A stretch of DNA of 53,032 bases from Iphinoe sp. HA4291-MV1 (GTDB lineage Bacteria > Cyanobacteriota > Cyanobacteriia > Cyanobacteriales > Nostocaceae): positions 1 through 53,032 of the forward strand of contig JAHHHH010000049.1 in NCBI GenBank assembly GCA_019359415.1, in the 5' to 3' direction. The notes beneath the pieces were generated by a model. It worked only from the letters and a program-made list of their open reading frames with translations. It did not search any database and was not told where the DNA came from. Each line of letters opens with the position of its first letter. Within the stretch, counting starts at the first letter, position 1. This document shows, one piece after another, positions 8,650 to 40,004 of the stretch. The position numbers and the translations under genes are program-made.

Positions 8650-10239
8650 ATGGACGCTACGGCACTTTGGCAAAGATACCAGCAATGGTTATATTTCCAT
8701 GAAGGATTGGGACTATACCTGGATGTGAGCCGGATGCGGTTTGATGACGCTTTTGTAGAAAAGTTGCAGCCGAAGTTTGAAAAAGCTTTTGCGGATATGG
8801 CGGAACTTGAGAAGGGAGCGATCGCTAACCCAGATGAAAACCGCATGGTTGGACACTACTGGCTGCGAAATCCTGATTTAGCACCTACCCCAGAACTCAC
8901 ACAAGAAATCGTAGATAGCATAGAGCAAATCGATGTGTTTGCCGAAAAAATCCACGCAGGTGGGATTCGTCCTCAAAAAGTTCCTCGCTTCACTGATCTT
9001 ATCTCTATTGGCGTTGGTGGTTCTGCTTTAGGTCCCGAATTTGTCGCTGAAGCCTTAGCCCCAGACTTCCCCCCACTGGCAATTCACTTCATTGACAATA
9101 GTGATCCAGCAGGAATTGAACGTATTTTAACTCATTTGAGAAGTCGCCTTGCCAGCACTTTGGTCTTAGTAATCTCCAAGTCTGGCGGAACACCAGAACC
9201 GCGCAATGGCATGATTGAAGTCAAAAAGGCTTACGCTGAACAGAATTTGGACTTTGCTAATTCTGCGATCGCTATTACCATGCCAGGTAGTAAGCTGGAC
9301 GAACAAGCAAAATCCGAAGGCTGGCTCGCAAGATTTCCCATGTTTGACTGGGTGGGAGGACGCACCTCAGAAATGTCTGCTGTGGGGTTATTACCAGCAG
9401 CGTTGCAAGGCATCGATATTCTCGCCATGCTAGAGGGTGCAAAACAGATGGATGACGCCACCCGCATCCCTGATATCAAACAGAACCCAGCCGCATTGTT
9501 AGCTTTATCCTGGTACTATGCTGGCAATGGACGGGGCGAAAAAGACATGGTTGTCCTACCTTACAAAGATAGCTTACTTCTGTTCAGTCGCTATTTGCAA
9601 CAGCTGGTGATGGAATCCTTGGGTAAGGAGAAAGACTTAGAAGGCAACACCGTTCACCAAGGTATTGCCGTTTATGGCAACAAAGGCTCAACCGACCAAC
9701 ACGCCTACGTTCAGCAGTTGCGCGAGGGAGTGCCGAATTTCTTTGTTACCTTCATTGAAGTTTTGGAAGACCGAAAGGGTCCATCTGTTGAAATTGAACC
9801 CGGAATCACAGCAGGCGACTATCTTTCTGGTTTTTTGCAAGGAACCCGACAAGCACTTTCTGAAAACCAGCGCGGCTCGATTACAGTAACCATTCCCCAA
9901 GTCAATCCTCGGACAGTGGGTGCATTAATTGCTTTATATGATCGCGCTGTTGGTTTTTATGCCAGCTTAGTTAACATCAACGCCTACCATCAACCAGGCG
10001 TAGAAGCTGGTAAAAAAGCCGCTGCTGCAATTCTTGAGTTGCAAAAACGAGTTGTAGAAGTTTTGCAAACAGAAAAAACAGCTCTTTCCCTGGAGGAAGT
10101 TGCTCAAAAAGCAGGTGCAACAGACAAAATCGAAGCAATTTACAAAATTTTGCGTCATTTACACGCAAATCAGCGAGGAATCGTGTTGCAAGGCAATCTT
10201 GGACAACTCAGCAGTTTGAGGGTTTCTGCCACCTCATAA
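8650..10239 (+). CDS. pgi: Glucose-6-phosphate isomerase
   Basis: Interconverts glucose-6-phosphate and fructose-6-phosphate in glycolysis, gluconeogenesis and the oxidative pentose phosphate pathway, which feeds cyanobacterial dark metabolism. 529 aa, normal for the cyanobacterial form. Visible family motifs: [28 protein letters not shown] (phosphate-binding SIS domain), the signature [15 protein letters not shown], and [16 protein letters not shown] with the catalytic-region Lys and His. A C-terminal helical extension resembling a small DNA-binding fold is usual in cyanobacterial Pgi. The start is the ATG at 8650 with a weak ribosome site. It stands alone, followed by a palindrome at 10270-10291. 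Confidence 0.96.
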
Positions 10240-13320: not shown

Positions 13321-13917
13321 CTACCCTAATTTTTTTTGTGTCTCTCCAAATTTCACCTTGTTATACACATCTACTAAAGACATTTGAAACGGTATTGAAG
13401 CGAGAGTTATCTTTTCATCTTCTTCATCATATTCAAAAAGTGACCATCGCTTCTTTGCGGTTTTAGAAAACTGTTCAATATATATTCGAGTTTGGTCAAT
13501 CAAAACATACTCAGCAAAAGAGAGAATAGTCTTATAAGCATGAAATTTTCCCTCTCTGTCATAACCTTCAGTTGATTCTGATAAAACCTCAATAATCACT
13601 ATAGGATTAGTAATAGTATCAGTGCGATTATCCCAATATATCGGTTCACCAGCGATTACCATCACGTCTGGGTAGGTGTAGATTCGCTTCTGCGGTATCC
13701 ACAGGCGCACATCACCCATAAAGACTTCATAGTCCTGCTGCTTAAAAGCAAAATTTAATGCAGCATAAAAGTTACCTGCTATCCGGTTATGATTTGTCGT
13801 TCCACCAGCCATAGGGATTATTAGACCGTCAATATACTCACTTTTATACTCGGCGGTTTCTTCTAGCTGTAAGTACTCTTCTGGAGAGTAGTATCGCTGT
13901 TCTTGGTAAGTTTGCAT
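13321..13917 (-). CDS. Uma2-family (DUF820) putative endonuclease
   Basis: 198 aa with the complete family pattern: YYSPEEYLQLEETAEYKSEY-type N-terminus, YIDGLIIPMAGGT, TYPDVMVIAG (metal-binding Asp), VIIEVLSESTEGYDREGKF (Glu with downstream Lys) and AEYVLIDQTR. It belongs to a different subgroup from the copy at 7657. It lies just past the 3' end of the nuclease operon on the same strand, with about 300 bp and a tandem repeat between them, so it is probably a separate transcription unit. Its function is unresolved for the family. Confidence 0.88.
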   Translation of the reverse strand: MQTYQEQRYYSPEEYLQLEETAEYKSEYIDGLIIPMAGGTTNHNRIAGNFYAALNFAFKQQDYEVFMGDVRLWIPQKRIYTYPDVMVIAGEPIYWDNRTDTITNPIVIIEVLSESTEGYDREGKFHAYKTILSFAEYVLIDQTRIYIEQFSKTAKKRWSLFEYDEEDEKITLASIPFQMSLVDVYNKVKFGETQKKLG

Positions 13918-14205: not shown

Positions 14206-14430
14206 ATGAGAAAGCAAACAGCAAACAGGTATTTTGAGAAAGCAATTAGTCATTTTGCTTGCCCAAAACACCAAAACCAATGCGTGAATTACTGAAATGA
14301 GAAAGCAAACAGGCATTTTGAGAAAGCAATTAGCCATTTTGCTTGCCCAAAACACCAAAATCAATGCGTGAACTACTGAAATGAGAAAGCAATTAGCCAT
14401 TTTGCTTGCCCAAAACACCAAAATCAATGC
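14206..14430. repeat. Tandem repeat, about 84-bp unit, 2.6 copies
   Basis: Unit 1 is 14206-14296 (with an extra CAAACAG duplication), unit 2 is 14297-14380, and unit 3 is 14381-14430 (internally shortened). Each unit contains GAGAAAGCAATTAGCCATTT and then TTGCTTGCCCAAAACACCAA, with an internal GAGAAAGC direct repeat. The array ends exactly at the 3' end of the nuclease gene. A minus-strand frame runs through it but only because the unit length keeps frame in part; I regard it as non-coding. Confidence 0.85.
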
Positions 14431-15894
14431 CTAAATTTGAGGAGTAGGGAAATCGCGTAGAAAGTAAAAGCGATCGCGTCTCCAATCATTACCTTTAATT
14501 CGTCCCAAGTAGCCTGTTAAAGGTGAAGAAAGTTCAATCAGAATTTCATGCATTTCCTCTGTTTTTAGAGGCTGTGGTGGATTTGAGCCAAAATAATATA
14601 CACCATGTAAACTCTCAACTTCAGTATTATCTGAACCAGTTTTTTCTAAATAGTTTTTAACAAGTTCTACAAGGTGCGCTCTCAGAAAAATCTTTCTTTC
14701 TAACTTTTCTATATATTTATCAAGTTTATCATCAATTTGTCCAGCTTCTAAATATTGCTTCAATTCAAATAAGTTTATAGCACCTGGATATTTTGATTTT
14801 AATTCTACTAGCTTTTGCAAAGTCATAGCATTAATAATACTTACTTTCCATTCTTGAGATGTTTTTAGCATATCTGGAGATGGATTGCCAGGACCAATAA
14901 CTAACTTGGCTGAATTTAGAAATTGGTCTGAGCCTAAGTGCATCCCTCCCAGCTTAATCAATTCCTCAACAGTACCACTAGGAATCAGCTTACCTGCTTT
15001 ACACTCACCAACAAGGGGATAAGGTTTTGAACAAAATAAATCTAAACCACCAGCACCACCTTTGTAATGAGACTCAACTTTAAATCCTAAAAATTCAAGG
15101 CTGTCGCGTGCGATGTTTTCAAAATCTGTACCAGCTTGATAGTTGCTTTTTTTCTTCTCTTGTTCTATGCTGCGATCGCCATACGCTGCAATGTTGTTTA
15201 TCCAAGCTAAATCTGGATCGGGTTGTTGGATAAGTTGCTCAGTCGTCCAACCTAAAAATGCTTTAATATCTTGATCTAATGGTTTAGCGGCTGGGTTGGT
15301 GATAGCAAGGGAGGCTAAAGCACTTTGCAAGTCTTCTAATTCTGGATGCGGTGGCGGTTGACGTGTTTCTAGTTGGTGTTTGCGGATGGCAAAGGTGCGA
15401 TCGCTTAACACGGGGTTTGTTTGAGAAACTGTCACAGGCTGTGGTAAGGCAATAAACTGACTGTTTTTCTTGACTTGAACTTCAATTGCTTGAGGTAGGT
15501 AATAAACGCGCAGGTAAGCGAGAAAGATGTTTTGCCGTTGCTTGAGTGTTTCTTGTAAAGCTTCTTGTGTCCAAATCGTTCGTAAAGATAAAGCAGCTAG
15601 TGATTCAGTATTATCGATAATTTGACATAATTCACACTTTACCCAAGCTTTAATTGAGACAGTTTCAGTATCTAGTTGGGCAATAGCAGTTTGAGCAATA
15701 GGTAAGAAACTAAAGTGATAATACCGCTCAACTGGCAGCACGTTCATTAATCCATCTGCGGGACAAAGTGCAAATTCTCGCCCTTGAGTAAGAAATTTAT
15801 TAGATATAGCTGCAATCATTCGACCTTGCAACAGTGCCTCAATATCTGGTACTGGCAAGCATAAAGCGGTATTAATCACAACAGAATGATTCAT
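14431..15894 (-). CDS. PD-(D/E)XK nuclease-domain protein, third gene of the operon
   Basis: 487 aa. Residues 252-320 form a restriction-endonuclease-like core: Glu259 in GTDFENIA, FLGFKVESHYKGGAGGLDLF with Asp285, then PLVGECKAG with Glu297 and Lys299, the classic D-x(n)-ExK arrangement, followed by a helix. The pattern is like Mrr/NERD-type enzymes that cut DNA. The 250-residue N-terminal part is not recognised; it begins with VINTALCLPVPDIEALLQ and has CELC at 87-90. The C-terminal 150 residues are mostly helical. The start lies 6 bases after the ATPase stop, so the two are translationally linked. The active-site residues are intact, so it should be a working nuclease, with the ATPase as its likely activator or loader. 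Confidence 0.7.
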   Translation of the reverse strand: MNHSVVINTALCLPVPDIEALLQGRMIAAISNKFLTQGREFALCPADGLMNVLPVERYYHFSFLPIAQTAIAQLDTETVSIKAWVKCELCQIIDNTESLAALSLRTIWTQEALQETLKQRQNIFLAYLRVYYLPQAIEVQVKKNSQFIALPQPVTVSQTNPVLSDRTFAIRKHQLETRQPPPHPELEDLQSALASLAITNPAAKPLDQDIKAFLGWTTEQLIQQPDPDLAWINNIAAYGDRSIEQEKKKSNYQAGTDFENIARDSLEFLGFKVESHYKGGAGGLDLFCSKPYPLVGECKAGKLIPSGTVEELIKLGGMHLGSDQFLNSAKLVIGPGNPSPDMLKTSQEWKVSIINAMTLQKLVELKSKYPGAINLFELKQYLEAGQIDDKLDKYIEKLERKIFLRAHLVELVKNYLEKTGSDNTEVESLHGVYYFGSNPPQPLKTEEMHEILIELSSPLTGYLGRIKGNDWRRDRFYFLRDFPTPQI

Positions 15895-15900
15895 TTTTTA

Positions 15901-17775
15901 TTAAAAGATGTCTATGCTTACTTCTTCCACATCGCTAACTAGTGGTGTATTTACGACACTCTGACTACTTTCTTCATCAACAGCATCTTCAGGTACTTGT
16001 CCAGATGGGTCGCTGAGAATTTCACGGATTATATAATTATCAATTGCTATCTGCTGATGGCGAATAAAATCCAAAATTTGCTGTTCGCTTAACTCATAAT
16101 CTTCACGACCCTTCATAACGAAATGTAGTGCTAAAAGTGGCTTAATGTCCTCTGATTTTAACAATATCCATTCACCACCTAGGTTTTTTGACAAAAGTTG
16201 GCTCAAACACTGTTGTGCTTGAGCAGCACCTTTGTTAATTTGCTTAGAGCGAACTAAGCAACCACGAGTTAAATCAAAATCTTTGTAACGAATTAATCGT
16301 CTTAATGTAGCTCCAACTATCTTGCCTCCAGAATCTTGAAGAACAGCTACGCCAATTCTGACAGCTTTACCATTTTCCTTACCAACGACTTTGAAATCTA
16401 TATAACCTTTGTCCGCAGCTCTAGCTTGAACATCTTTGATTTCTTCAATTTGTACTTTTTCTATAGTTTCTCCAATCACAGCAGAGAAACCTAACCGTAA
16501 TGCCTGAGCAAGGGTTGCTTTATCCTCCATGTAATCTTGTACTGTCGTTTCTAAAGCAGCTAATTGTTGATTGTAAGCAGGTTCTACAGGGTTTTTTGGC
16601 TCGATTTTTTCTGTTCCTCCATCTATAACAGGAGATTGAAAGTTGTCAGCACACCATTGCAAAACTTTTCTGACAATTGGTTTTTCCTTACCTAATGCTC
16701 TAAGTTTATCTTCATCAAAGGGATAAACTGAATGAGGAGGAGTTAATCCCTTCTCTTGATAAAAATCTTCAAGCCATCCAGACACCAATGCAACAACCTC
16801 ATCAGAATTAAGATGTTTTAAATCAATAACTTTTTCACCTATTCTGTCTACAACTGCTTCAGCATAGGGTAAGACTTTTACCTGATGAGTCCAGGTTTCA
16901 GGATATATAGAAGTTAACAAAATACCCTGCTTAATTTTGTCGTATAAGTCTTTAGCGAGGAGAGCTGTAACTTGTGGTCCAGTAAATCCCGCATCATTAC
17001 ATCCTGCACTCTCCATTTCATCAAAACAGATAACTATAGGTTTGTAATCACTAATTAAGTCGAGAATTTGACGAGCCGTAGTGAAGGAATCAGCTTCTTT
17101 ATCTTCAGGATTAGGGTTTGATAAACCCATTGCATCCGCTTTTGACTGCGGTAAACTTTTTCCAGCGAGCCAGTTTATAGCAAAAAGTTCATAACCTGGC
17201 TCAGAGGAAAGAGTCCACATAATAGCCGTGATGATGTCTGGGTTTTCGATATCATGCTTAGTTGCAAGTACTCTATCTCTTAGATGTTCTGCTACCTTGG
17301 GATTTCGCGTGAAGGCTTCAGCAAATTTACTAACCATCTGCTGAGGAGTGTAGCTTTGATTAAATGCTTCATTATGAAGATCTGTTGCTAATTCCCGCCA
17401 CTGGCTTACTCCTTGACTACCTATTTGTTTGAGGCTAATTGCTAGGGTTCGCAAAAATTCAGCTTTAATTCGATTTAAATTCCCACACTCACTCATGTAG
17501 ACAAACAAAGCAATACCATCACTTTGCAAGTTATGGCGAATGCGACTGATGAGGTGACTTTTTCCTAGCCCTTTTTCAGCAGTGATAGTTATGCCAACAA
17601 CTTGTCGCTGTCGGGTTCGAACTTTCTCTATTGCCTCATAAACAGCATCGGAAGCATGAGCATTTAAGGATGGAACATCAGGAAAACCTTGTCCCCAAAC
17701 ATTATGTGTTCTAACTACAAAGCGTCCCTCAAATGGGTTATGGTTTTTGATGGCATTAATTAAGTCGTTGGACAT
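15901..17775 (-). CDS. Large P-loop ATPase, second gene of the operon
   Basis: 624 aa. Walker A is AEKGLGKS (66-73; the first glycine is replaced by alanine) and Walker B is PIVICFDEME (246-255, Asp252-Glu253). After that come sensor-like LLTSIYPETW and DRIGEKVIDLKHLNSDEVV, which looks like an AAA+/ORC-type lid, and then a winged-helix-like stretch. Residues 430-560 form an alternating strand/helix domain (GYIDFKVVGKENGKAVRIGV onward) that I cannot assign. The N-terminus NPFEGRFVVRTHNVWGQGFP looks like a targeting or partner motif. The C-terminus is acidic. It lies between a winged-helix gene and a nuclease gene, an arrangement common in prokaryotic immune cassettes. It resembles the ATPases in BREX-type systems only in a general way. 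Confidence 0.7.
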   Translation of the reverse strand: MSNDLINAIKNHNPFEGRFVVRTHNVWGQGFPDVPSLNAHASDAVYEAIEKVRTRQRQVVGITITAEKGLGKSHLISRIRHNLQSDGIALFVYMSECGNLNRIKAEFLRTLAISLKQIGSQGVSQWRELATDLHNEAFNQSYTPQQMVSKFAEAFTRNPKVAEHLRDRVLATKHDIENPDIITAIMWTLSSEPGYELFAINWLAGKSLPQSKADAMGLSNPNPEDKEADSFTTARQILDLISDYKPIVICFDEMESAGCNDAGFTGPQVTALLAKDLYDKIKQGILLTSIYPETWTHQVKVLPYAEAVVDRIGEKVIDLKHLNSDEVVALVSGWLEDFYQEKGLTPPHSVYPFDEDKLRALGKEKPIVRKVLQWCADNFQSPVIDGGTEKIEPKNPVEPAYNQQLAALETTVQDYMEDKATLAQALRLGFSAVIGETIEKVQIEEIKDVQARAADKGYIDFKVVGKENGKAVRIGVAVLQDSGGKIVGATLRRLIRYKDFDLTRGCLVRSKQINKGAAQAQQCLSQLLSKNLGGEWILLKSEDIKPLLALHFVMKGREDYELSEQQILDFIRHQQIAIDNYIIREILSDPSGQVPEDAVDEESSQSVVNTPLVSDVEEVSIDIF

Positions 17776-17844
17776 GGATGTATTTGCAGTATTTGCAGTA
17801 GCGGTGTACTAGGAGTTAGCAGGGAATCAGCAAAAATCGGTAGA

Positions 17845-18510
17845 TTAGTTCAAACGCTTGGCATAGCAGCGTAGCCCACTGACTTCAGTAGTGATGGAGT
17901 CTTCCAATTTGGTTGAGTCATTATCTGGTAAGCTGCCACCTTGAAGTTGCAAAATGTCCTTCTCCTGCATTTCCAGTAGCCATTCATTGAATTCAGAACG
18001 ACTGACGCGATCGCCTATTTCTCTTCTAATCCTGTAAATTGGTACCAAGTCATCTAAGTTGTAGTCTTGATTCAGTTTGTCGTAGACTTCCAACGTGACT
18101 TGCTTAAACTCCTCGTAAGATTCAATCCCACTCTTCACCCCATTAGCTGATGCAGTTGTAGCGATCGCACCATCCATTTGACTTATCCACTGCAGCAGTG
18201 CATTAACCACCCAACTACCGACAGTATTGGCTTCAAACCTAAACTCTGGATTTTTCAAACCCTCACCCAGCACCTCTAAACCCACAGGAGATATGAGAGA
18301 GTAACCTTTTTTGGAAATAGCGATCGCTCCTTTTTTCTCCAATTCCTTAAAGATGCTCTGATAATCTGCTACCTTCTTGCCTTTCGGTACAATTCGCTTT
18401 GTAACTTGACCTTTGTTCACTTCTTGCTTTGTTCCTCCCAAATCCCACAAAGCCAGAAGAAGACGAGTTTTCACCTGAGTTTCGATTATTGGTAAATTTT
18501 TTGACGCCAT
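17845..18510 (-). CDS. Winged-helix protein, first gene of the nuclease operon
   Basis: 221 aa. The first 90 residues look like a winged helix: KTRLLLALWDLGGTKQEVNK, YQSIFKELEKKGAIAISKKG (recognition helix and wing) and YSLISPVGLEVLGEG. A second similar module occurs at about 150-220 (LVPIYRIRREIGDRVSRSEF, then EWLLEMQEKDILQLQGGSLP). Two DNA-binding-type modules in one small protein suggest either a regulator of the operon or a DNA-sensing subunit of the complex. The gap to the ATPase start is 69 bases, on the same strand. Its ATG at 18510 follows a promoter-size gap before repeat-rich DNA. No homologue can be named with confidence. Confidence 0.6.
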   Translation of the reverse strand: MASKNLPIIETQVKTRLLLALWDLGGTKQEVNKGQVTKRIVPKGKKVADYQSIFKELEKKGAIAISKKGYSLISPVGLEVLGEGLKNPEFRFEANTVGSWVVNALLQWISQMDGAIATTASANGVKSGIESYEEFKQVTLEVYDKLNQDYNLDDLVPIYRIRREIGDRVSRSEFNEWLLEMQEKDILQLQGGSLPDNDSTKLEDSITTEVSGLRCYAKRLN

Positions 18511-19712: not shown

Positions 19713-20531
19713 ATGAAGTCTTATCTAGCCGCCGCTATTCAAATGACCAGTGTGCCCAATTTACAAGAAAATTTGGCGCAAGCAGAGGAATTCATCGACC
19801 TAGCCGTGCGTCAAGGTGCTGAATTAATTGGTTTGCCAGAAAACTTCGCTTTTATGGGTGAGGAAAATGAAAAACTGGCTCAAGCTGGTGCGATCGCTCA
19901 AGAAACAGAAAAATTTCTCAAAACAATGGCGCAGCGTTTTCAAGTTACCATCCTGGGTGGCGGCTTTCCAGTTCCTGTAGACAACACCAACACTCTTGTC
20001 TACAACACTGCTTTACTCATTGACCCTAGTGGTGAAGAACTCGCACGTTACCAAAAGGTACACTTGTTTGATGTTAATGTTCCAGACGGCAACACTTATC
20101 GAGAATCTACTACAGTTATGGCTGGTAAGCAATTGCCTCCTGTCTACTTCTCGCAAGAACTTGGTAATATTGGGCTATCGGTTTGCTACGATGTTCGCTT
20201 TCCCGAACTTTACCGACACATGGCTTACAAAGGCGGAGATATCATTTTTGTACCTGCTGCGTTTACTGCCTTTACTGGCAAAGACCATTGGCAAGTCCTC
20301 CTGCAAGCGCGTGCTATTGAAAATACCTGCTACGTGATTGCTCCAGCACAAACCGGCATCAACTACGCCCGCCGCCAAACTCATGGACACGCCATGATTA
20401 TAGATCCTTGGGGGGTTATTTTAGCAGATGCTGGCGAGGAGCCAGGAGTTGCGATCGCAGAAATTAACCCTTCGAGGCTAGAACAAGTCCGTCGGCAAAT
20501 GCCTAGCCTACAACACCGTGTCTTTGTTTAA
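19713..20531 (+). CDS. Carbon-nitrogen hydrolase, Nit1/Nit2-like amidase
   Basis: 272 aa of the nitrilase superfamily. The catalytic triad is complete: Glu43 in LPENFAF, Lys114 in YQKVHLFDV and Cys157 in SVCYDVRFPELY, with DHWQVLLQARAIEN following. The closest functional group is the Nit1/Nit2 branch, which removes the amide from deaminated glutathione or omega-amides, a metabolite-repair role in the cytosol. Length and motifs are normal. The start ATG at 19713 has no strong ribosome site. No operon partner: the next gene is 174 bp away and unrelated. Confidence 0.88.
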   Translation: MKSYLAAAIQMTSVPNLQENLAQAEEFIDLAVRQGAELIGLPENFAFMGEENEKLAQAGAIAQETEKFLKTMAQRFQVTILGGGFPVPVDNTNTLVYNTALLIDPSGEELARYQKVHLFDVNVPDGNTYRESTTVMAGKQLPPVYFSQELGNIGLSVCYDVRFPELYRHMAYKGGDIIFVPAAFTAFTGKDHWQVLLQARAIENTCYVIAPAQTGINYARRQTHGHAMIIDPWGVILADAGEEPGVAIAEINPSRLEQVRRQMPSLQHRVFV

Positions 20532-37895: not shown

Positions 37896-38873
37896 TTAAG
37901 AGTTAACAGTATTAACTTCTTGACGCGATCGCCAAAAGTGCCAAACAAAACCCACGAAAGCCAATACATCCAAGAAAAACTGGATATTTGCCATTGCCAA
38001 ACGGTTCTCACCGTAAAATTCTATTGGGAAAACTGTCATGTTATATCCCACAAAAACGACAGAAATAAAACCCATCAAAGCTAAACCAAGCAAGCTATAG
38101 GAAAGAATTTCTTCACCATTTTGTATAGGAAAAAGTCGTCGTACCCAATCAAAAGGTTGTACAACAATATGCCAAACGCCTCCCACAATTAGGATGAACC
38201 CAATCCAAATGTGGCCACCAATAACATCTTCTAAGTTGTCAACACTTGCCATTCCTAAAGGAGTCCAGCTACCATCTTTAAGACCAACCAAGTAGCCGAA
38301 TATTGTGACTGGGTTTATAGTGGGGTTATCAATGAGGCGGACATTTCCCAGATGAGTATCATAAATCCCACCAAAAAACATTGCTTTTAACACGAGCAAA
38401 AATGCTCCTAAACCCAGAATAATTAGGTGATGTCCTAAAATTAAACCTAATTGTTTCGGGTCATTCCATTCATAGTGAAATTTTGCAGTTCTTCCGCCAA
38501 GATTATACAAAACTGGCGAACTCTGGAAAACATGAAAAAGTCCTCCTGCGCCTAAAACAGCGGATGCTACTAAATGCAAAATCCCAACCACAAAATAGGG
38601 ATAAGTATCAATAACTTCGCCTCCAGCACCTACACCCCAGCCTAGAGTTGCTAAGTGAGGCAACAAAATCATTCCCTGCTCATACATTGGTATGTCAGGG
38701 ATAAACCGTGTCACCTCAGAAACAGTCGTTGCACCCACCCACAACATAATTAAGCCTGCATGAGCGATATGAGCACCTAATAGCTGTCCAGACAAATTAA
38801 TTAAACGAGCATTGCCAACTAACCACGGTAAATTGGTATCTGCTGTAAAGGTTCTATCAGTAGAAATTGTCAC
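37896..38873 (-). CDS. IsiA-family chlorophyll-binding antenna protein (second copy)
   Basis: A six-helix CP43-like antenna protein. Visible: [85 protein letters not shown] and a final [13 protein letters not shown]. It differs from isiA and lacks the extra C-terminal domain of fusion-type PcbC proteins. I start at GTG 38873 ([12 protein letters not shown]), which has AAGGG upstream and gives a normal N-terminus; an in-frame TTG right after the isiA stop would add 32 odd residues. Length 326 aa. It lies 96 bp after isiA and probably shares its transcript. Confidence 0.85.
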
Positions 38874-38969: not shown

Positions 38970-40004
38970 TTACGACTCGCTACTAATAGCATTGAGTGAC
39001 CTTTCCACTTGCTTGAAGTCAACGCCAATGGCTCGCAGAGCATGCCACAAGTGACCTTGTAGGAAGAAGAAAGCTAAGAAGAAATGGGCATTTGCCAACC
39101 AAGCTCTGGACGTATGCTGTCCTAACGGTAACTGGATTGTGTCGGCAAAATACGGAGAAACACCGAATTTGACTGCCAAAGTAGGTCCGTAAAATTCCAC
39201 AGGATATGCTAAGGTGTTAACTGCACAGAAGTAAGCAGCCACAAATCCTGCTAAAGCGATCGCTCCCAAAGAGTAAGAAAGAATGGCTTCACCTGAGAAT
39301 ATCAAAAGCTTCTTTGTCCAAGGAAAAGGCTCTGTCAGAATATGCCAGACACCTCCAACAACGAGGAACAAGCCTACATAAATGTGACCACCAACTAAAT
39401 CTTCCAAGTTATTCACACTGGCAAAGTGGGTTTGGTAGCCATAGATGACGAATGGGTTGAGGGTGGGATTGGTGACAACTCGGACAGCGTGAATTGTCGA
39501 GTCGTAGAGTCCTCCCCAGAACATGGCTTTCGCTACGAGCAATAGAGCAGCGACTCCCAAGAAAATCAGGTGATGTCCCAAGATGAAGCCAAGTTTCTTT
39601 GGATCGTCCCATTCAAAGTGAAATTTACGAGCACGTCCTTGTGCATCTTTCAAGTTTTTTGGACCTTTGAAGGTATGGAATAGTGCACCCGCACCAAGGA
39701 CGGCAGATGAGATCAGGTGCAAGGCTCCAATGACAAAATAGGGGTAAGTACTTACCACTTGACCCTCTGCTCCTACACCAAAGCCCAAAGTAGCTAGGTG
39801 AGGTAGCAAAATCAATCCCTGTTCGCCCATTGAGACATCAGGGTTGTAACGAGAGAGTTCAAACCAAGTAAAAGCCCCTGCCCATAATGTCGTTAGCGCT
39901 GCTTGCGCGATATGAGCGCCAAGAAATAAGCCAGAGAGGTTGGTAAAGCGAGCGTTTCCAGCCCACCAGTCATATTTGACGTTGGAATTGCCGTATGTCT
40001 GCAT
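38970..40004 (-). CDS. isiA: Iron-stress chlorophyll-binding protein IsiA (CP43')
   Basis: 344 aa antenna that forms rings around photosystem I under iron limitation. Six helices with the CP43' pattern: [98 protein letters not shown] and a C-terminal [20 protein letters not shown]. The large lumenal loop of real CP43 (PsbC) is absent, which separates IsiA from it. Start ATG at 40004 with an AGGAGGCAAG site upstream. It is the first gene of the minus-strand cluster and is usually under Fur control and the antisense RNA IsrR, neither proven here. Confidence 0.95.

Follow-up and report, generated by a model that had tools for sequence, protein, structure and literature searches.

A three-gene operon in the cyanobacterium Iphinoe sp. 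HA4291-MV1 probably encodes a nuclease system directed against invading phages or plasmids, and in the Nostocaceae it usually sits at one chromosomal site, next to the glucose-6-phosphate isomerase gene pgi. The stretch analyzed, hereafter the window, comprises 53,032 nt of contig JAHHHH010000049.1. The operon genes all lie on the minus strand and encode, in order, a winged helix-turn-helix (wHTH)-like protein, a P-loop ATPase and a PD-(D/E)XK nuclease. A preliminary description of this DNA had regarded such a composition as typical of anti-phage or anti-plasmid systems. A defense role is now supported, without being proven, by the co-conservation of the three genes, by what replaces them at the pgi site and by the exchange of alleles between relatives.

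The open reading frames (ORFs) lie exactly where the preliminary description had placed them, on one strand and separated by gaps of 69 and 6 bases. A scan of GTDB genomes returned 251 relatives of the ATPase, and we analyzed the best 80 of these 251 loci. The wHTH, ATPase and nuclease genes follow each other in this order on one strand at 76 of the 80 loci, and the gaps, taken over 79 triads, have medians of 44 and 10 bases. Of the exceptions, L133 and L143 hold only the ATPase within the flanks, and L150 and L155 are cut by contig ends. Because 76 of the 80 loci keep the same genes, order and strand, the three-gene arrangement is beyond chance. Among 292 sampled cyanobacterial genomes, in which strong matches were counted and weak and remnant ones left out, the ATPase is found in 44, the nuclease in 43 and the wHTH protein in 44; any strong member is present in 46, all three in 42 and a cluster of all three in 41. 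The genes proposed earlier to form one cassette are thus conserved together. Matches to the ATPase, nuclease and wHTH protein were found in 50, 49 and 42 of 60 relatives, respectively, counts that include paralogues and stand-alone DUF1802 proteins. Two triads with divergent ATPases stand in tandem at three loci (L132, L135 and L151).

As to whether the operon lies in defense islands, a check that the preliminary description had proposed, it is mostly found at one housekeeping site. Neighbors among the best 80 loci include pgi at 38 and mutM at 31 (names were checked by Pfam, for pgi on the window gene and for mdh, mutM and psaE on the genes of L038). We found pgi in 151 of 156 Nostocaceae genomes and read 126 of the 151 sites, the unread ones having too little contig room or, for the most part, ranking low by identity; six of the 126 sites had been retrieved earlier for other reasons, four of those six for remnants or a second copy. 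The full triad is present at 65 of the 126 sites, a remnant at 6 and neither at 55. On these counts a mobile defense-island system, considered as a candidate, was rejected.

At 50 of the 126 sites the far flank is formed by mdh, mutM, psaE or pap. These sites, bounded on both sides, hold the triad in 37 cases, a remnant in 5 and neither in 8. Site contents were scanned with PADLOC for the larger ORFs, and immune-type genes stand at six of the 13 bounded sites without a triad. A retron-type reverse transcriptase with a Schlafen (SLFN)/TPR protein is found at L247 and L285, a NACHT NTPase with an FGE-sulfatase at L237 and L254, and the PADLOC candidate PDC-S28 helicase at L162 and L228, the former also keeping a remnant of the nuclease tail. 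Phosphonate-transport genes lie beside remnants at L159, only small unscanned ORFs of at most ∼220 residues are present at L202, L240 and L166, the triads of L182 and L275 are broken, and L199 is rearranged. Without the six loci fetched earlier, 46 bounded sites are left, of which 36 have the triad and five of the other 10 hold immune-type genes. The replacement of the operon by defense-type genes at the pgi site is suggestive and not a tested enrichment, because control ORFs also matched PADLOC. Near the nuclease end we also observed pairs of genes for ∼105 and ∼120 residues, up to three in tandem (for example L161:3002-5236), the ∼120-residue product being aspartyl-protease-like below the cut-off; one or other of these genes occurs at 50 of the 126 pgi sites.

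Remnants of the operon also adjoin a pair of genes that resembles the Bunzi system. In four genomes an N-terminal remnant of the wHTH gene precedes, on one strand, a gene for 267 or 335 residues and a gene for 433 residues. This remnant spans ∼100 residues in L158, L160 and L163 and is in two pieces in L167. A C-terminal nuclease remnant of 27-28 residues ends the row on the other side in L158 and L160, and none was detected in L163 and L167. The 433-residue protein of L158 matches the PADLOC model BnzB (9.8e-62), the partner genes match PDC-M09A in both L158 and L160 and, weakly, BnzA in L160. At the DNA level the four inserts share 92-96% identity. Three of the genomes (G077, G172 and G197; G285 was outside that check) have pgi at another place, and G077 has a full triad at its pgi site too. 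A defense role of the operon is suggested because immune-type genes occupy pgi sites that lack it and because the Bunzi-like pair stands beside its remnants. The remnant ends also provide a handle, as genes next to the wHTH N-terminal remnant or the nuclease tail are candidate new defense genes.

The interior of the operon is exchanged between relatives while the flanks stay. We compared pairwise identities of each region with those of the ATPase core over the 75 usable triads of the 80 loci. The ATPase C-terminal domain (correlation r = 0.91), the wHTH C-terminus (0.80) and the DUF1802 region at the N-terminus of the nuclease (0.77) follow the core, so that the wHTH C-terminus, the ATPase and DUF1802 are co-inherited as a block; r is low for the catalytic domain (0.11), the nuclease C-terminus (0.33) and the wHTH N-terminus (0.32). 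In a sliding-window scan r drops to 0.05-0.11 at nuclease positions 241-400, while the most variable ATPase stretch still reaches 0.83. Catalytic domains are less than 50% identical in 197 of the 408 pairs with ATPase cores more than 70% identical, and conversely 128 of 2775 pairs combine catalytic domains above 80% with ATPase cores below 60%. The catalytic domains fall into two types (46 and 29 of the 75), which require at least 20 changes on a quick ATPase tree versus 23.2 when shuffled (17 of 200 shuffles gave 20 or fewer).

Housekeeping markers extend this picture. For the 65 triads beside pgi, the window included, r with pgi is 0.54 for the wHTH N-terminus, 0.37 for the DUF1802 region, 0.36 for the nuclease tail, 0.31 for the nuclease C-terminus, 0.27 for the wHTH C-terminus, 0.21 for the catalytic domain and 0.13 for the ATPase core. 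In the 42 pairs with pgi more than 95% identical, median identities are 0.47 for the ATPase core, 0.92 for the catalytic domain and 0.90 for the wHTH N-terminus. At the 27 loci with pgi, mdh and mutM, the control proteins follow pgi (r = 0.85 for mdh and 0.69 for mutM); the wHTH N-terminus (0.41) and the nuclease tail (0.29) have lower values, and the ATPase core and the catalytic domain have 0.08 each. The 11 closest pairs, in which the mean of the three housekeeping proteins exceeds 93%, have medians of 0.98 (pgi), 0.97 (mdh) and 0.96 (mutM), compared with 0.92 for both the wHTH N-terminus and the nuclease tail, 0.57 for the catalytic domain and 0.47 for the ATPase core. Between L238 and L245 the DNA from pgi to mdh is mostly 0.80-0.98 identical, apart from two isolated 200-base windows (0.62 and 0.66) and a continuous stretch of 0.49-0.67 that spans the DUF1802 region, ATPase and wHTH C-terminus; across this stretch L238 and L241 are alike. 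The 65 pgi-site ATPases form eight types at 60% identity (22, 20, 11, 4, 4, 2, 1 and 1 members) that require 32 changes on the pgi tree versus 35.7 when shuffled (9 of 200 at or below). The catalytic types require 13 versus 19.4 (0 of 200), fewer than shuffled, and therefore keep some species signal that is nearly lacking in the ATPase type. That the catalytic module is the only swapped part was rejected, since the pgi, mdh and mutM markers show that the ATPase block is exchanged too.

Exchange at the level of domains is what conflict systems show, and it thereby supports a defense role; the pattern is in keeping with phage inhibitors acting as a selective pressure or with a change in target preference. 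We tentatively entertain, at slightly under even confidence, the idea of a combinatorial immune locus, in which standing homology arms would be provided by the N-terminal ∼98 residues of the wHTH protein and the C-terminal ∼30 of the nuclease. Between these arms interiors would be recombined among relatives, with ATPases of eight types at a single site, nucleases of two types largely independent of the ATPase and even unrelated defense genes such as the Bunzi-like pair, giving populations of multicellular cyanobacteria a shuffled repertoire at one address. The pgi site also constitutes a natural experiment, since the cassette varies strongly among close relatives whose flanks differ little, which makes natural alleles comparable in phage range.

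The domains of the three proteins bear on how such a system might work. The complete E...D...ExK core reported earlier for the nuclease is present, and over the 75 usable triads E259, E297 and K299 are conserved in all 75 and D285 in 74. The Walker A and B motifs of the ATPase are equally real: of the 75 sequences, 74 have K72 (the other has a gap there) and 74 have D252, and residue 253 is a glutamate in 68 and a glutamine in 7. The 250-residue nuclease N-terminus, described at first as unassigned, matches Pfam DUF1802 over residues 10-174 (2.8e-30), as do all 24 nuclease homologues scanned singly. Mrr_cat matches 17 of these 24 at E ≤ 0.1 (best 1.3e-4; the window protein, at 0.033, is below the cut-off), and the catalytic part appears Mrr_cat-like. 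Matches of the ATPase to AAA_16, AAA_22 and KAP are all sub-threshold. Two winged-helix-like modules had been proposed for the small protein, and support for a winged helix is weak: 5 of 23 members match the DUF6293_C winged helix (best 5.9e-4) and 5 of 23 match SelB-wing_2 (best 0.017), and Pfam gives no match at 0.1 for the window protein. The ATPase C-terminal domain is possibly an inactive restriction endonuclease (REase)-like fold followed by a wHTH. The structure searches suggested in the preliminary description found no solved structure for the ATPase sequence or the nuclease alignment and one, at 1.7, for the wHTH alignment; the ATPase alignment, which includes one ATPase (L066) outside any triad, gave only chance-like matches such as YTH at 0.004. 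Of 31 relatives, 27 have a stand-alone DUF1802 protein of ∼200 residues (G000:C127:44250-44774), which appears to be a housekeeping cousin of the N-terminal nuclease region.

In an anti-invader nuclease system built from these parts, the ATPase, which is Orc/Cdc6- or STAND-like, would join the wHTH protein in a complex that scans DNA in an ATP-dependent manner, in analogy to SspB-SspC. An encounter with DNA that is foreign, or whose modification state is foreign, would trigger the complex to load or activate the DUF1802-PD-(D/E)XK protein, and the Mrr-like domain would cut. DUF1802 may be a reader or an adaptor, and the interior may be under diversifying selection. What the system targets, what ATP does in it, whether DUF1802 reads, how the exchange comes about and whether invader or host DNA is cut are all matters of interpretation from sequence.

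Several results weigh against such a system. PADLOC 2.0.0 contains no family that matches any of the three proteins at E ≤ 1. It also fails to recognize the two NACHT loci (L237 and L254), whose immune-type label comes from Pfam NACHT and from general knowledge of bacterial NACHT proteins, and one of the replaced sites holds transport genes. The control ORFs near pgi at other sites (143 of 268 ORFs) gave 43 PADLOC families at 1e-20, a stricter threshold than that applied to site contents; these matches are scattered, none of the 25 families listed (of 43) having more than two members, and include the PD-T4-6, Cas12f and DpdF models. At the domain level, hhalign found no REase signal in the ATPase C-terminus when it was compared with the operon nuclease domain, and it aligned the DUF1802 region with YqfB-type ASCH (YqfB, then with four homologues added) at a probability of 0.1-0.2, control regions reaching up to 2.0; the resemblance of DUF1802 to ASCH is one seen by eye only. 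Lastly, the operon is less mobile than many defense systems, since the nuclease and ATPase have no phage or viral-contig matches and are essentially absent from plasmids. In this search, which covered these two proteins only, the nuclease was found in none of the plasmids and phages or on viral contigs, and the ATPase in two weak plasmid records and in none of the phages or viral contigs. A phage- or plasmid-borne origin was rejected on the same results for these two proteins.

Among alternative explanations, modification-dependent restriction of type IV is a possible one that we hold with some doubt: DUF1802 would read a modified base and the ATPase would power cutting as in McrBC, in place of a general invader sensor. 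The Mrr-like catalytic part of the nuclease speaks for it, but the hhalign comparison of DUF1802 with ASCH was no better than its controls, and DUF1802, which also stands alone in most relatives, need not be a defense reader. We regard it as unlikely that the operon encodes a DNA repair or end-processing (resection) complex of filamentous cyanobacteria, related to a paralogous wHTH-ATPase-exonuclease/PDDEXK/FtsK operon. In 10 of the retrieved loci a paralogous ATPase does adjoin an exonuclease-PDDEXK-FtsK protein, many of the 60 relatives have distant matches to the ATPase, and the triad stands at a stable housekeeping site. However, its patchy presence, its remnants and broken copies, the near-random exchange of alleles at one site and the other immune-type genes in its place are at odds with a repair function, and the FtsK-linked paralogues themselves resemble the "HerA/FtsK capture" conflict systems described in part of PMC10853773. 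Finally, it is most improbable that the nuclease merely drives its own spread by homing-like gene conversion, cutting alleles without the same module and so causing cassette exchange without any immune function: the catalytic module and interior are indeed exchanged within conserved flanks, yet the ATPase and wHTH protein, partners that homing endonucleases are not known to need, are co-conserved with the nuclease, and unrelated immune-type genes are found in the operon's place.

Coordinates of the operon, its modules and the flanking genes in the window
Feature	Coordinates	Strand	Length	Remark
wHTH-like protein, first operon gene	17845..18510	-	221 aa	
wHTH N-terminal module, ∼residues 5-98; outer operon end	18217..18498	-		tracks the species marker better than the interior; remnant beside Bunzi-like genes
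wHTH C-terminal module, ∼residues 130-221	17848..18123	-		co-inherited with ATPase
P-loop ATPase, AAA_16/AAA_22/KAP-like below curated cut-offs	15901..17775	-	624 aa	
ATPase Walker A, residues 66-73, AEKGLGKS	17557..17580	-		
ATPase Walker B, residues 248-253, VICFDE	17017..17034	-		
ATPase C-terminal strand-rich domain, ∼residues 405-600	15976..16563	-		
Nuclease, DUF1802 + PD-(D/E)XK	14431..15894	-	487 aa	
Nuclease DUF1802 domain, residues 10-174	15373..15867	-		co-inherited with ATPase block
Mrr-like PD-(D/E)XK catalytic module, ∼residues 230-375; E259, D285, E297, K299	14770..15207	-		two interchangeable types
Nuclease conserved C-terminal tail, ∼residues 457-486, ELSSPLTGYLGR...RFYFLRD; inner operon end	14437..14526	-		remnant at several sites
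pgi, glucose-6-phosphate isomerase, conserved site flank	8650..10239	+		Pfam PGI 9e-56
Carbon-nitrogen hydrolase (nitrilase-like), far flank in the genus of the window	19713..20531	+		

Other features of the window include an 84-bp tandem repeat (14220-14404; 2.2 copies) immediately downstream of the nuclease gene and, between pgi and the triad, a 198-residue Uma2-family protein (13321-13917; Pfam "putative restriction endonuclease", 1.7e-33). Opposite two adjacent ORFs, presumably isiA-type genes, Rfam places two IsrR antisense RNAs (38291-38468 and 39434-39611).

The preliminary description had matched the combination to no named system and thought it perhaps undescribed. The absence of a name stands: NCBIfam 20, like PADLOC, gave no match above cut-off for the three proteins, and a known system from either collection was rejected for want of a matching model. 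The literature yielded no paper devoted to the operon, judged by titles and the starts of abstracts, and no useful lead on DUF1802, cyanobacterial defense hotspots or domain-swapped nucleases. The composition, on the other hand, is probably not new. One clause in section 22 of PMC10853773 (2024; Rakesh, Aravind and Krishnan) describes unnamed operons of an Orc/Cdc6 ATPase, an REase-ASCH protein and a DndG-like triple-wHTH protein, predicted to provide immunity against selfish elements, and the general theme recurs in the part of PMC12839542 considered here. We infer that the window operon is of this kind, although ASCH is not confirmed by sequence, and the published anti-invader prediction for a look-alike composition supports a defense role.

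As far as that clause and its surrounding passages go, both have a wHTH protein, a P-loop ATPase whose C-terminal domain is large and an REase with an N-terminal fusion, and the catalytic residues expected of the REase subunit are intact here. An inactive REase is placed there between the AAA core and the C-terminal wHTH of the Orc/Cdc6-clade ATPase. In the window operon DUF1802 (0.1-0.2 by hhalign against ASCH) may correspond to their ASCH domain, the ATPase, with its below-cut-off AAA_16, AAA_22 and KAP matches, may belong to their Orc/Cdc6 clade, and the small protein, with weak winged-helix matches in 5 of 23 members, may be the counterpart of their triple-wHTH protein. The window operon differs in its mostly fixed site, the published neighborhoods being called mobile. 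The main text of PMC10853773 makes no mention of cyanobacteria, DUF1802 or Nostoc, and allele exchange does not figure in the passages considered. What is new here is the pgi-site setting with its replacements and the exchange of the interior with two interchangeable nuclease types.

The HerA/FtsK capture systems, as far as the same passages describe them, are resembled by the paralogous cyanobacterial operons, whereas the window operon has no FtsK/HerA pump: no FtsK family was found in its three proteins or in the seven neighboring window proteins scanned. In the 10 retrieved loci the paralogous operon comprises a ∼283-residue gene weakly similar to the wHTH protein, a ∼680-residue ATPase and a ∼860-residue protein, which in L052 has DNA_pol_A_exo1, PDDEXK_1 and FtsK domains. 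It occurs at L051-L059 and at G000:C86:16711-17730, and the copy of the window genome, with its ATPase in two ORFs (L051 8514 and 9490), may be broken. A third variant is a single gene for ∼800 residues that fuses an RNase_T-type exonuclease to a related ATPase (L060:9034-11424). The Methylobacterium plasmid pMaq22A_1p (L076:4243-9252) carries in a row a 353-residue protein (DUF559-like by eye), a 226-residue protein and a 1084-residue ATPase-HerA fusion, which likewise resembles the capture systems as outlined there.

With McrBC and Mrr type IV systems the window operon shares a motor ATPase and a PD-(D/E)XK nuclease with an Mrr_cat-like core; it adds a separate wHTH-like subunit and DUF1802, and neither McrB nor McrC matched its three proteins in Pfam or NCBIfam at E ≤ 1. 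In SspABCD, according to the passages of PMC10853773 considered here, SspB-SspC pairs a wHTH recognition protein with an Orc/Cdc6-clade ATPase as a proposed DNA scanner. Likened to it by composition alone, the window operon has a nuclease in place of the SspABCD phosphorothioation enzyme.

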